Positions 12,956-51,727 of a DNA stretch of 52,807 bases are shown piece after piece. Within the stretch, counting starts at the first letter, position 1, and each line of letters starts with the position of its first letter. Location of the stretch: positions 1-52,807 of the forward strand of contig NZTP01000069.1 of NCBI GenBank assembly GCA_002696485.1, read 5' to 3'. Source of the DNA: Altibacter sp. Lineage in GTDB: Bacteria > Bacteroidota > Bacteroidia > Flavobacteriales > Flavobacteriaceae. The position numbers were made by a program, and so were the translations under genes. The notes under the pieces are model-generated. The model made no database searches, had not been told where the DNA came from, and saw nothing but the letters and a program-made list of their open reading frames with translations.

Positions 12956-13552
12956 TCAGCTATAGATACTATTAATAAATCCGGCTTTACTTTCGCCGGA
13001 TTTTTTTATGAGTGCATGCTTGGCATTCAACTGATCGGCCTCTATCTTATCTTGAGACAGTTTAAATTTACCCTCCCAATGAGTAATGGTCATTGCGAAG
13101 GCTTGAATGTAATTTACGGCACGATCCATTCGTTCATTATCTCGATGTAAAACAAAACGTTGTTCTTCCCCTTCTAAAAATGTAGTCATTGCGATCATGG
13201 TCTCCTTAGCGGCTTCAGGATCGTTGATCAAACGCACCGTGCCGGTGACATGGACGATGATATAATTCCAAGTGGGTAATTGTTCTGTTGTATAGACACT
13301 CGGCGATATATAAGCATCAGGACCACGAAAGACAACCGTAACCTCGGCACCTTCCTTAAGTGTTTCAATCTGCGGATTGTTTTTGTCGATATGTGCGATC
13401 AATGCACCGGTGGTCTCATTGTAGATAATAGGAATATGAGTTAGCAGAGGTTTGCCATCTAAGACAGATACGAGCATACCTAAGGGATACTCCCGAATAA
13501 GGGCGATCATTTTTTGTATGTCTTGGGATTGGTGATAGGGCGGTGGATACAT
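12956..13552 (-). CDS. PaiB family FMN-binding protein
   Basis: A 198-residue protein of the PaiB (FMN-binding negative transcriptional regulator) family, which has a split-barrel flavin fold. Recognisable parts are the N-terminal MYPPPYHQ, a LVSVLDGKPLLTHIPIIYN strand pair, and the core TWNYIIVHVTGTVRLINDPE. In Bacillus, PaiB affects sporulation and protease genes; in Bacteroidota the role is unknown, and a redox function is possible. The last codons (KKSGESKAGF) form the inverted repeat that serves as terminator of the converging lipoprotein gene, so the coding end is doubly constrained. The two converging genes end 2 bp apart. Confidence 0.88.
   Translation of the reverse strand: MYPPPYHQSQDIQKMIALIREYPLGMLVSVLDGKPLLTHIPIIYNETTGALIAHIDKNNPQIETLKEGAEVTVVFRGPDAYISPSVYTTEQLPTWNYIIVHVTGTVRLINDPEAAKETMIAMTTFLEGEEQRFVLHRDNERMDRAVNYIQAFAMTITHWEGKFKLSQDKIEADQLNAKHALIKKSGESKAGFINSIYS
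12977..13007 (+). terminator. Intrinsic terminator of the lipoprotein gene, inside paiB-like coding sequence
   Basis: AAATCCGGC (12977-12985) and GCCGGATTT (12995-13003) form a 9-bp stem with a 9-nt loop, followed by seven T in a row (13001-13007). It begins 23 bp after the lipoprotein stop codon. The whole structure lies within the last 18 codons of the converging PaiB-like gene. Read on the minus strand it lacks a T tract. Confidence 0.85.
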
Positions 13553-13703
13553 GATGCTAAAAGATTTTCAAACTAAAGTTAAAAATACAATTACCCTTTT
13601 GCTTTTTTCACTTTTTTGTATAATAATTAGACGGTATTGATATTTATGAGATTTGATACTTCGATACAACTTCAACGAACTACGTTTTGCTCTTGATTAC
13701 AAA
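13553..13703. other. AT-rich spacer without a gene
   Basis: This 151-bp stretch upstream of the PaiB-like gene holds no open frame with coding character. It contains the likely promoter of that gene (minus strand TAACTTTA about 20 bp before the start, one mismatch to the -7 consensus) and ends at the first copy of the tandem repeat. Confidence 0.4.
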
Positions 13704-13905
13704 TCAAACTCCAAACTGTCGTAAATGGTGGTCCAAATCTTTCAATAGAATCTTGACGCCAAACTCCTAAAATTTGTTCCGAAAGCTACAAATTTTAGGG
13801 AGTTTGCCACCCCGCACGTGGGTCATCGAAGTTTTCAGAAGGATTACAAAATAATACCATCTATATTTTTTCAGCGTTACGATCCTTATTCATTACACCA
13901 AAAGA
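13704..13905 (-). repeat. DUF1569-tail tandem repeat, unit 1 (202 bp)
   Basis: First of three head-to-tail units. On the minus strand it ends with a copy of the DUF1569 gene terminus, encoding DLDHHLRQFGV and the stop. It carries a long inverted repeat: left arm 13761-13777 (AAACTCCTAAAATTTGT) and right arm 13788-13805, pairing over 17 bp with one bulged base around a 10-nt loop. Then follows CCACCCCGCACGTGGGT, which contains the palindrome CACGTG, and a conserved AT-rich tail ending at ATTACACCAAAAGA. It has no coding potential of its own. Confidence 0.9.
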
Positions 13906-14105
13906 TCAAACTCCAAACTGTCGTAAATGATGGTCTTGATGTTTCAGAAAGGCTTTTACGCCAAACTCCTAAAATTCGTGCCGCAAGCTACAAATTTTAG
14001 GGAGTTTGCCACCCCGCACGTGGGTCATCGAGATTTTCAGAAGGAATACAAACAATACCATCTCTATTTTTCAGCGTTACGATCCTTATTCATTACACCA
14101 AAAGA
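13906..14105 (-). repeat. DUF1569-tail tandem repeat, unit 2 (200 bp)
   Basis: Second unit, same layout. The minus strand encodes HQDHHLRQFGV plus stop at the terminus-like end. The inverted repeat arms lie at 13963-13979 and 13990-14007, with one C-A mismatch; the loop sequence differs from unit 1. Two short open frames that cross units 1-2 and 2-3 are by-products of the repeat and not genes. Confidence 0.9.
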
Positions 14106-14305
14106 TCAAACTCCAAACTGTCGTAAATGGTGGTCTTAATGTTTCAATAGGATCTTGACGCCAAACTCCTAAAATTCGTGCCATAAGCTACAAATTTTAG
14201 GTAGTTTGCCACCCCGCACGTGGGTCCTCGTGGTTTTCAGAAGGAATACAAATAATACCATATCTATTTTTCAGCGTTACAATCCTTATTCATTACACCA
14301 AAAGA
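14106..14305 (-). repeat. DUF1569-tail tandem repeat, unit 3 (200 bp)
   Basis: Third unit, directly abutting the stop codon of the DUF1569 gene. The gene-terminus copy has an in-frame stop (reads H-stop-DHHLRQFGV), so it is not translated as a tail. Inverted repeat arms lie at 14163-14179 and 14190-14207; the right arm has a G-to-T change. A fourth copy of the shared segment (14306-14344) is the real end of the DUF1569 gene. Confidence 0.9.
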
Positions 14306-14755
14306 TCAAACTCCAAACTGTCGTAAATGGTGGTCTAAATGTTTATACTGCATTTGCCCCCACTGGGCGTTGGTGAAATAACCGAATCCGGGATGCGGTT
14401 TCCATGAATCTCGGTCGCGTTCTGCATAGTATTCGGCCATGAGGTCTAACAAATACTGCTTTTCCTTGTCAAAATCTTTGGGTTCTGTCACCACAAATTC
14501 TTTGGCGGAACGCAAGTTCTTTTTCCACGGTTTGTCATTGTAGAGCAAGGGTTTAAACCCTTTGATTAAAATTTTCATCAGGAGATTGGGTTTCTTGATA
14601 GTCGTTCTCTCCAAAGGGATCTCAAAAGGTTTCTGACAATGATGCAGCATCTGTGCCACATCCATGGATCCCCATGTTCGTTGCGTGTTGGATGTGAGTT
14701 TGTCCAGACGGTTTACAAGTTCTTGATAGGCGTCTGCTTCGAAAATTGATTTCAT
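14306..14755 (-). CDS. DUF1569 family protein
   Basis: A 149-residue cytoplasmic protein of the DUF1569 family, whose members have a DinB-like four-helix fold. Visible features are LTSNTQRTWGSMDVAQMLHH near residue 30, with the histidine pair of the DinB-like metal site, and the C-terminal HPGFGYFTNAQWGQMQYKHL followed by DHHLRQFGV, which supplies more histidines. The function is unknown; DinB-like enzymes often act in thiol or metal chemistry. The ATG at 14755 was chosen because an upstream TTG at 14791 adds residues outside the family. The last 39 bp are repeated at the start of each of three downstream ~200-bp units. The gene diverges from radC. Confidence 0.85.
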   Translation of the reverse strand: MKSIFEADAYQELVNRLDKLTSNTQRTWGSMDVAQMLHHCQKPFEIPLERTTIKKPNLLMKILIKGFKPLLYNDKPWKKNLRSAKEFVVTEPKDFDKEKQYLLDLMAEYYAERDRDSWKPHPGFGYFTNAQWGQMQYKHLDHHLRQFGV

Positions 14756-14803
14756 CGCGTAGCATTTTGTGAATAGGAAAGGTACGAACAAAATTTAGTT
14801 TTA

Positions 14804-14811
14804 TATCTTTG
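14804..14811 (+). promoter_or_regulatory. Candidate -7 box of radC
   Basis: TATCTTTG is a full match to TAnnTTTG, 89 bp before the radC ATG at 14901, giving an 80-nt or so leader. No TTG at standard spacing is present. Confidence 0.4.
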
Positions 14812-14900
14812 AGATACTCCTGCCACATAAAGAACACCGGTAGCAACTCCCAAACAATATTCTTATTGAAATCGTATTCATTTTCAGAAGCGAATAAAAT

Positions 14901-15599
14901 ATGGGAGAAATAACTACACCATTCTCGATAAAACATTGGAGTGAAAAGGATCGCCCGCGAGAGAAATTACTTCAAAGAGGCCACGCTGTTCTAAGTGATG
15001 CCGAATTACTGGCCATTCTTATTGGTTCGGGGAGTCGTAACGAAAGTGCGGTGGCCCTGTGCAAGCGTATTTTGGCTTCGGTAGATAACAACCTGAACCA
15101 ATTAGGAAAAATGGAACTGGGTGACCTTCTACAGTTCAAAGGGATTGGAGAAGCAAAGGCCGTTACCATCTTGGCAGCACTAGAATTAGGCAGGCGACGG
15201 CGTATGGGAGAAGCACTTCAGAAAAAAAAGATCAATTCCAGTGCATCGGTCTTTGAGCTTATGCAACCCATTATTTCTGAACTGCCCCACGAGGAGTTTT
15301 GGATCATCTATTTGAACAATGCCAACAAGGTCTTACAAACCGCACAATTAAGTAAAGGAGGGATTACAGGGACCTTGGTAGATGTTAGACTGGCCTTTAA
15401 AAATGCATTACAGCTGGGAGCGGTGGCACTTATAGTCGCGCACAATCATCCATCAGGAACACTGCACCCTAGTCAGGCCGATAAGGATTTAACCCAAAAA
15501 TTAAAAAAAGCGGGAGAAAGTTTGGACATTAAGGTATTGGATCACCTAATAATTACTGAAAAAGCGTACTTTAGCTTTGCAGACGAAAACCTTCTATAA
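14901..15599 (+). CDS. radC: RadC family JAB-domain protein
   Basis: A 232-residue protein with an N-terminal helix-hairpin-helix-like part (LSDAELLAILIGSGSRNESA, LLQFKGIGEAKAVTILAALE) and a C-terminal JAB/MPN metalloprotease-like domain. The metal-site motif is HNHPSG at residues 181-186, followed by the acidic ligand in SQAD. RadC was once linked to DNA repair, but its biochemical role is unsettled; some members take part in DNA uptake or defence. The gene is full length. The next gene begins with the base after its stop codon, so the two are likely co-translated. Confidence 0.93.
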   Translation: MGEITTPFSIKHWSEKDRPREKLLQRGHAVLSDAELLAILIGSGSRNESAVALCKRILASVDNNLNQLGKMELGDLLQFKGIGEAKAVTILAALELGRRRRMGEALQKKKINSSASVFELMQPIISELPHEEFWIIYLNNANKVLQTAQLSKGGITGTLVDVRLAFKNALQLGAVALIVAHNHPSGTLHPSQADKDLTQKLKKAGESLDIKVLDHLIITEKAYFSFADENLL

Positions 15600-28638: not shown

Positions 28639-28760
28639 AAAAATGTTAAGAAAATTAACAAGATATATAATATTAACACAAAAACATATAGCTTTGATAA
28701 AATGAAAAACTGGGTTTTCGATTTATAATCTAAGTAGGTAAGAAAAAATCGAAACGTTTA

Positions 28761-28794
28761 AAAACAAAAAAGCCACTACATCGTAGTGGCTTTT
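28761..28794 (-). terminator. Intrinsic terminator of the second SusC/SusD operon
   Basis: GCCACTAC and GTAGTGGC pair with flanking A/T to a 12-bp stem (28768-28779 with 28783-28794) and a 3-nt loop. On the minus strand it is followed by TTTTTTGTTTT. It begins 17 bp after the stop of the SusD-like gene. Confidence 0.85.
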
Positions 28795-28811
28795 CTTTTT
28801 TTTCCAATTTT

Positions 28812-51716: not shown

Positions 51717-51727
51717 ACCAAAGAAAA

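Follow-up and report, generated by a model that had tools for sequence, protein, structure and literature searches.

Why should the end of a protein-coding gene be found again, several times over, in the DNA behind it? The question is raised by a contig of 52,807 nucleotides from Altibacter sp. (Flavobacteriaceae; NZTP01000069.1), analysed at its full length and here called the window, in which a DUF1569 gene is followed by repeats that each carry its 3′ end. A tandem array at 13703-14344 (period 200, 3.2 copies, 91% matches, 1% indels by TRF) is the sole array listed in the window, and the tail copies within it start on the plus strand at 13704, 13906, 14106 and 14306, the last being the DUF1569 gene itself. 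The resulting spacings of 202, 200 and 200 bp, together with the TRF result, confirm the three tandem units that an earlier note, made from the sequence alone, had described. Read on the minus strand, the direction of the gene, the order is gene-T0-S1-T1-S2-T2-S3-T3, followed by the region preceding an FMN_bind_2 gene (Table 1). Each unit consists of a spacer, S (~161 bp), with one short and one long hairpin, and a tail, T (39 bp), which copies the tail of the DUF1569 gene and ends in a stop codon; the array holds four T and three S. A stretch behind T3 considered as a decayed S was unsupported (64/500 shuffles scored as high).

Table 1. Coordinates of the DUF1569 array and its neighbours in the window.
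Feature	Positions	Strand	Evidence
DUF1569 gene, 149 aa; last 39 bp (14306-14344) = T0	14306..14755	-	Pfam PF07606 2.9e-11; ORF
Spacer S1 with hairpins	14145..14305	-	unit alignment
Short GC hairpin (hairpin 1) of S1	14211..14225	-	RNA fold
Long hairpin of S1 (R1 model span)	14157..14213	-	fold z -4.6 (70-nt core); R1 3.1e-18; R2 2.5e-07
Tail copy T1	14106..14144	-	unit alignment
Spacer S2	13945..14105	-	unit alignment
Short GC hairpin equivalent of S2	14011..14025	-	RNA fold
Long hairpin of S2	13957..14013	-	fold z -3.5 (70-nt core); R1 1.0e-17; R2 1e-08
Tail copy T2	13906..13944	-	unit alignment
Spacer S3	13743..13905	-	unit alignment
Short GC hairpin equivalent of S3	13809..13823	-	RNA fold
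Long hairpin of S3	13755..13811	-	fold z -3.8 (70-nt core); R1 1.6e-18; R2 3.1e-08
Tail copy T3, distal; no recognisable S after it	13704..13742	-	sequence and alignment
FMN_bind_2 (PaiB-like), downstream neighbour	12956..13552	-	PF04299 1.5e-43
RadC-like gene, neighbour on other side of DUF1569	14901..15599	+	PF04002 1.8e-42

It had also been claimed that each unit contains a near-copy of the last ~39 bp of the gene, stop codon included, and this is borne out, with the DHHLRQFGV codons and the stop retained in all four T copies. The codons preceding this stretch vary (H*DHH in one copy, HQDHH in another), and since they are not kept, one being a stop, the T copies are not maintained as coding sequence. 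Alignment and folding of the units, proposed in the note as a check, give spacers that are pairwise 90-92% identical (145/161, 147/160 and 144/160), each with a hairpin whose fold z-score is well below zero (Table 1). The protein family names used here (DUF1569, FMN_bind_2, RadC, dehydrogenase, TPM, DUF2867 and response regulator) were taken from Pfam.

As DNA the unit has a narrow distribution. A search of its own genome with a 241-bp unit gave 25 matches, with strong E-values only at the DUF1569 locus (three overlapping matches, best 8.2e-123); the remaining 22 are short (E >= 0.014), one of them being the same hairpin on the opposite strand. Among 60 genomes, its own included, 13 match the unit at E <= 0.001, the 12 others matching the gene tail only, and DNA searches of relatives with the unit or with S alone returned the conserved gene tail or short AT-rich stretches, which from their alignments were judged chance. 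For structure-based searches the long hairpin was represented by two covariance models: R1, trained on the window units and on G089, a genome of a different genus, and R2, built from hairpins at other loci, with G000 (the window's own genome) and G002 (A. lentus) among its training genomes. Sampling one genome per species, we found R1 matches in 15 of 397 genomes of the family (E <= 0.05) and R2 matches in 17 of 397 (E <= 0.02), part of them in both cases judged chance, terminator-like hairpins included. Some of the loci confirmed by the models (the window, G089, G000 and G002) also served to train them, so hairpin status there is not independent of the models, while the test for tail copies is model-free. 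R2 recovers the hairpins of the array within the window (1e-8, 3e-8 and 2.5e-7), which indicates that these and the hairpins at other loci belong to one family.

The clear members of this family share an architecture that runs from the gene end through, often, a short GC hairpin, then GGTGG, the long hairpin with a conserved apical motif, GGCGT or GCCGT and ~12 nt, to a copy of the end of the same gene. Across the family S measures ~70-160 bp and T ~20-50 bp, T including the stop codon or the tRNA or rRNA 3′ end and sometimes a terminator. Members lie behind DUF1569 in four genomes of three genera (G000, G089, G304 and G223) and behind a short-chain dehydrogenase gene in eight genomes of four genera (G000, G001, G002, G003, G139, G309, G099 and G258). 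Others are found behind an NAD-binding/DUF2867 gene (G219), a response regulator (G309), a TPM gene (G304), a tRNA-Leu(GAG) identified by ARAGORN (G223, with a tail copy of ~10 bases recognised by eye) and a probable 5S rRNA end with terminator (G304, the 5S end identified by eye). A weak case is common to G182 and G409 (score 24-26); in G268 the gene from which the arrays derive lies beyond the contig. RadC-like frames flank the DUF1569 arrays of G304 and G223 too, according to ORF lists. Searching for units elsewhere, at the ends of other genes, had been suggested in the note as support for a mobile element, and relatives in other genera were indeed recovered by R1 and R2. Copy number is variable as well, at one genome per species: arrays contain from one to eight units, and the eight of G003 are 119-120 bp each. 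Given these relatives, alike in architecture but placed at different genes and in different genera, the window array is not a private local duplication; the outcome under which the note would have preferred a simple local duplication, the same copy number at this locus only, did not occur.

The window's own genome holds a second family array, behind its dehydrogenase gene (C62:15546-15661 and C9:1-120; loci L289 and L288), and this array coincides with two contig ends. C62 breaks off within the second unit and C9 opens partway through one, so assembly probably split the array, whose true length may be greater. Several other stretches resemble the family in part. A hairpin in A. lentus (L244, G002:C1:2534376-2534432) is family-like (R1 1.5e-4), and no tail copy was found there. 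Near positions 51720 and 2681965 of G003:C1 (L286 and L287) lies a second dispersed hairpin repeat that is built similarly, from a short hairpin, GTGG and a long hairpin. Mosaic repeats between genes surround it, and no gene-tail copy was recognised there. On the G304 contig that carries the probable 5S-end array, a Flavo-1 RNA match falls near threshold (L270 447-546, 40.4 bits against a cut-off of 42).

A number of matches were dropped as due to chance or as ordinary sequence: an R2 match at 28753-28808 of the window, which is a terminator-like hairpin; R2 matches in G152, G138, G383, G110 and G140, without tail copy; weak R1 matches in G234, G404, G389, G275, G146, G378 and G402, where the best direct-repeat scores were 18-24; an R1 match in L140 upstream of DUF1569 (E 0.038); and an R2 match in L314 within the dehydrogenase gene. 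Plasmids, phages and one viral pattern gave no match to the element, a second viral pattern gave six stretches of which R2 confirmed none, and viral contigs yielded neither DUF1569 nor dehydrogenase proteins.

Conservation of the long hairpin was assessed in a seven-sequence alignment (A7), in which 91% of cells pair, falling to 39-56% when the structure is slid along the alignment. Changes on both sides of a pair occur at 11 pairs and in 22 cells, compared with 6.1 and 7.6 in shuffled alignments, and none of 500 shuffles scored as high. When all 20 hairpins, of both types, are pooled, RNAalifold gives a weak consensus (-0.23 kcal/mol), suggesting the two hairpin types align poorly together. 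The hairpins group partly by gene and not by genome, as judged by eye.

Comparison of DUF1569 loci places the window array beside gene ends with and without the element. In 112 rows, representing 107 distinct loci (five are duplicated; L112, read to an early stop, has an uninformative score and is still counted), the best tail-copy score within 800 bp behind the gene is 73 in the window and 33 in G089, all others being <= 24. Hairpin and T copy occur together at two of the 107 loci, and neither is present at 105. In G089 some 85 bp containing a hairpin separate the DUF1569 stop codon from a tail copy of 21/24. Of 1000 shuffles, 0, 2 and 0 score as high as the alignment of this spacer with the three window spacers in turn, and in the window/G089 stem alignment (A4) both sides have changed in 3 cells against 0.8 in shuffles (8/500 as high); the G089 hairpin alone folds weakly (z -1.0). 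Among the dehydrogenase loci, hairpin and tail copy occur together at 4 of 21, those of the four Altibacter genomes, with neither at the other 17.

The empty DUF1569 terminus that the note had asked for in relatives is present within the same genus: in G001 the next gene, FMN_bind_2, begins 19 bp behind DUF1569, and in G003 the next gene lies at 109 bp. A. lentus, whose DUF1569 is 84% identical to that of the window, has a gap of 221 bp. Directly after its stop codon is a two-hairpin stretch (L063 3448-3545) resembling the window units, with alignment scores reached by 14, 222 and 277 per 1000 shuffles against units 1 to 3 and by 350 against G089. As neither R1 nor R2 matches it and it lacks a tail copy behind it, we regard it only as a possible remnant; one arm resembles an inverted copy of the window gene tail (0/500 shuffles, for a likeness picked after being seen). 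In two other genomes (L051 and L125) short tandem repeats of a 7-base unit begin at the stop codon of DUF1569, which again suggests that repeats accumulate at this gene end.

The window array belongs to a family of gene-end elements that is dispersed among Flavobacteriaceae. We propose that these arrays were founded by insertion at the level of DNA and later expanded, a reading we consider somewhat probable. In such a founding event S would enter at a gene 3′ end by a DNA-level process that targets such ends, and the target T would be duplicated to give T-S-T. T may be duplicated as an att core common to attL and attR, in which case the gene stays whole; from the arrangement of the repeats we infer this att-like integration step, along with a recombinase that would act in trans to move S. 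Once founded, the T and S repeats would expand, contract and homogenise via recombination or slipped replication, and exchange between T copies would leave the gene end intact. The note had pictured repeated insertion of a small non-autonomous element. Its mobile-element idea fits relatives at other gene ends and in other genera; the units within an array are closely alike, however, so that duplication or recombination of whole T+S units explains array growth better than separate insertions.

Spacing and array ends argue for an insertion at the founding step. Of the 18 hairpins tested, 12 have their best direct repeat beginning 9-15 nt after the hairpin, G182 included, where it is weak (8/300 shuffles). 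The other six begin at 0 (G409), 3 (G223 DUF1569, where the alignment runs past the junction), 6 (G258), 22 (G003), 29 (G002 x) and 53 nt (G223 tRNA-Leu, where another repeat scored best). Weak tail repeats, which count against the insertion, were also seen at G002 x (57/300 shuffles as high), the first G258 hairpin (17/300) and G409 (3/300), the value for G089 being 1/300. The tail copy is identical to its own gene over the aligned stretch in G309 (49/49), G099 (52/52) and G139 (29/29); G309 and G099 are congeners, yet their gene ends differ from each other. Of 15 arrays whose ends could be read by eye, 11 finish in T without S after it: those behind DUF1569 in G000 and G089, behind the dehydrogenase in G000, G001, G002, G139, G258, G309 and G099 (decayed), in G219, and behind TPM in G304. 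In G223 the DUF1569 hairpin is of type II, those of the window and g83 being of type I, and T begins at the same codons. Together the array ends, the shared DUF1569 T start with two hairpin types and the narrow spacing at unrelated genes support the insertion.

These same observations bear on a different origin, in which the hairpin is an old structured element that provokes replication stalling or slippage, duplicating the gene tail to ~12 nt past the hairpin, so that T copies would arise without any insertion of S. Units alike over T and S together, as in the eight units of G003 or the window array with its period of 200, are in keeping with this, as are the three arrays that finish in S (G003 dehydrogenase, G223 DUF1569 and G223 tRNA-Leu) and the DUF1569 array of G304, where a decayed S comes after the final T; these four cases are as plain tandem duplication would give and count against insertion. 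Duplication of this kind is less easily reconciled with the 11 arrays ending in T, with the narrow range of distances from hairpin to T start among unrelated genes or with the G223 hairpin of the other type having the same T start, and it leaves related hairpins behind unrelated genes unexplained. We regard it as a possible but rather unlikely origin.

Further observations tell against the insertion that we favour. The partial grouping of hairpins by gene also fits old vertical inheritance with loss, and no recombinase was tied to the family in a survey of Y1 transposases: PF01797 has no match in the window's genome and matches 3 of the 14 genomes by then recognised as carriers of the element, compared with 6 of 14 others (one of the six, G001, was later found to bear it), so that there is no association between Y1 transposase and element. 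Nor was a full-size element seen at array sites, the search of viral contigs having been made with DUF1569 and dehydrogenase proteins.

The hairpin might instead act in RNA, as a 3′ UTR structure under mRNA selection for stability, processing or termination, with the tail copies as a by-product. Its orientation is that of the gene, sense, wherever the source gene is readable, and the conserved structure with compensatory changes in A7 would suit such a role. So would the excess of G-U over A-C in the stems on the sense strand, a point against the insertion reading: 19 to 3 with one row per array, and 42 to 4 in 32 sense rows of 44 (the 12 rows left out being 11 antisense and one window terminator), in rows aligned by a sense-strand model that may itself favour G-U. 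Against this, no T run directly follows the hairpins at the loci inspected, and Rfam gives no match in window 13500-14900 up to E 1 and, at related loci, only sub-threshold miRNA-family matches over the hairpins (E 0.06 and 0.37-0.38, far below cut-offs), no family reaching its cut-off over the element. At the tRNA-Leu and probable 5S loci S lies beyond a terminator-like hairpin with T run, which favours a DNA-level process, and this placement, together with the lack of the hairpin at most orthologues examined (105/107 DUF1569 and 17/21 dehydrogenase), makes an RNA role less likely; we consider it improbable. Purely local unequal recombination at DUF1569, with no element involved, agrees with the restriction of the 241-bp unit as DNA to one locus of its own genome and is contradicted by relatives built in the same way, which occur at different genes and in different genera and in one case within the same genome, leaving it very improbable indeed.

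To our knowledge, repeats that rebuild a gene 3′ end have been known as one odd case, E. coli tyrT. No description of a flavobacterial gene-end hairpin family was recognised in the literature searched, in which coverage of subscription journals was thin, and the analysis points to the array family as apparently undescribed gene-end repeats. With a hairpin and a spacing that are defined, and with clear empty sites, a family scattered in this way opens the origin of gene-end repeats to testing, and if mobile, its members would be among the smallest mobile elements that spare the host gene by design. Such arrays may break assemblies, as suggested by the G000 dehydrogenase array at two contig ends, and may therefore be under-counted.

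Several known systems share features with the family. As described in PMC3733652, REP elements are small palindromes outside genes with a GTAG tag at one end, for which a single-strand nuclease role has been proposed, and the extragenic palindromes described here are likewise small and tagged at one end, by GGTGG. They differ from REP/RAYT systems in the small number of loci found per genome under the thresholds and strict filters applied, in having adjacent gene-end copies and 100-200 bp tandem units, and in that the window's genome gives no match to a Y1 transposase. Integrative elements of tyrosine recombinases use the 3′ ends of tRNA and protein genes in a fixed orientation, rebuild the end, are flanked by direct repeats and can accrete in tandem. 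The flavobacterial S is similarly flanked by direct repeats of the gene 3′ end in a fixed orientation (weakly for G182, G409, G002 x and the first G258 hairpin), whereas at ~70-160 bp it is too short for a recombinase gene and contains a conserved folded hairpin. Folded single-strand sites are also a feature of integron attC, and a repeat-spacer-repeat layout with duplication of the target repeat that of casposons and CRISPR; the present arrays resemble both in these respects, but T varies by gene and equals the host gene tail, and the S units repeat one another within an array. Integron core sites read RYYYAAC/GTTRRRY and are used with IntI; reading by eye, we saw no such core pair in the element.

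The nearest precedent for the gene-end arrays is E. coli rtT (RtT RNA, rttR/tpr), which we take to be Rfam RF00391 and whose repeats have already been described in print. At tyrT/tyrV of E. coli K-12, in a layout read from the E. coli record, 178-bp units (3.1 copies, 95%) each carry AATCCTTCCCCCACCACC, the 3′ end of tRNA-Tyr, preceded by a strong hairpin. The stretch between tyrT and tyrV (L263 1705-2623) likewise contains a hairpin followed by a tRNA-Tyr tail copy, so that such copies are not confined to the region behind tyrV. DNA like a 111-base piece of rtT is found in 4655 of 5426 E. coli genomes, at 1-9 places each (median 2). The earlier note knew no named element of this layout; the comparable layout of tyrT/rtT means that the claim needs qualification. 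The rtT family itself had no Rfam match in window 13500-14900 up to E 1 and was not among matches to E 0.5 in eight related loci. Sequence and hairpin differ between the two, rtT having been compared here at the K-12 tRNA-Tyr alone, and the flavobacterial family, spread over several genera, follows a number of protein genes, a tRNA and probably 5S rRNA. What they have in common is tandem units each carrying the upstream gene's 3′ end, with, in E. coli, a strong hairpin ahead of the next tail copy. We tentatively suggest, as an idea that may well prove wrong, that gene-less hairpin cassettes, as a so far overlooked class of minimal mobile DNA, integrate at the 3′ ends of housekeeping genes for proteins, tRNA and rRNA, duplicate that end as their attachment site and form tandem arrays without damage to the gene, moved in trans by a putative enzyme that would recognise the folded hairpin and cut ~12 nt away, with E. 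coli rtT as another branch of the same kind.
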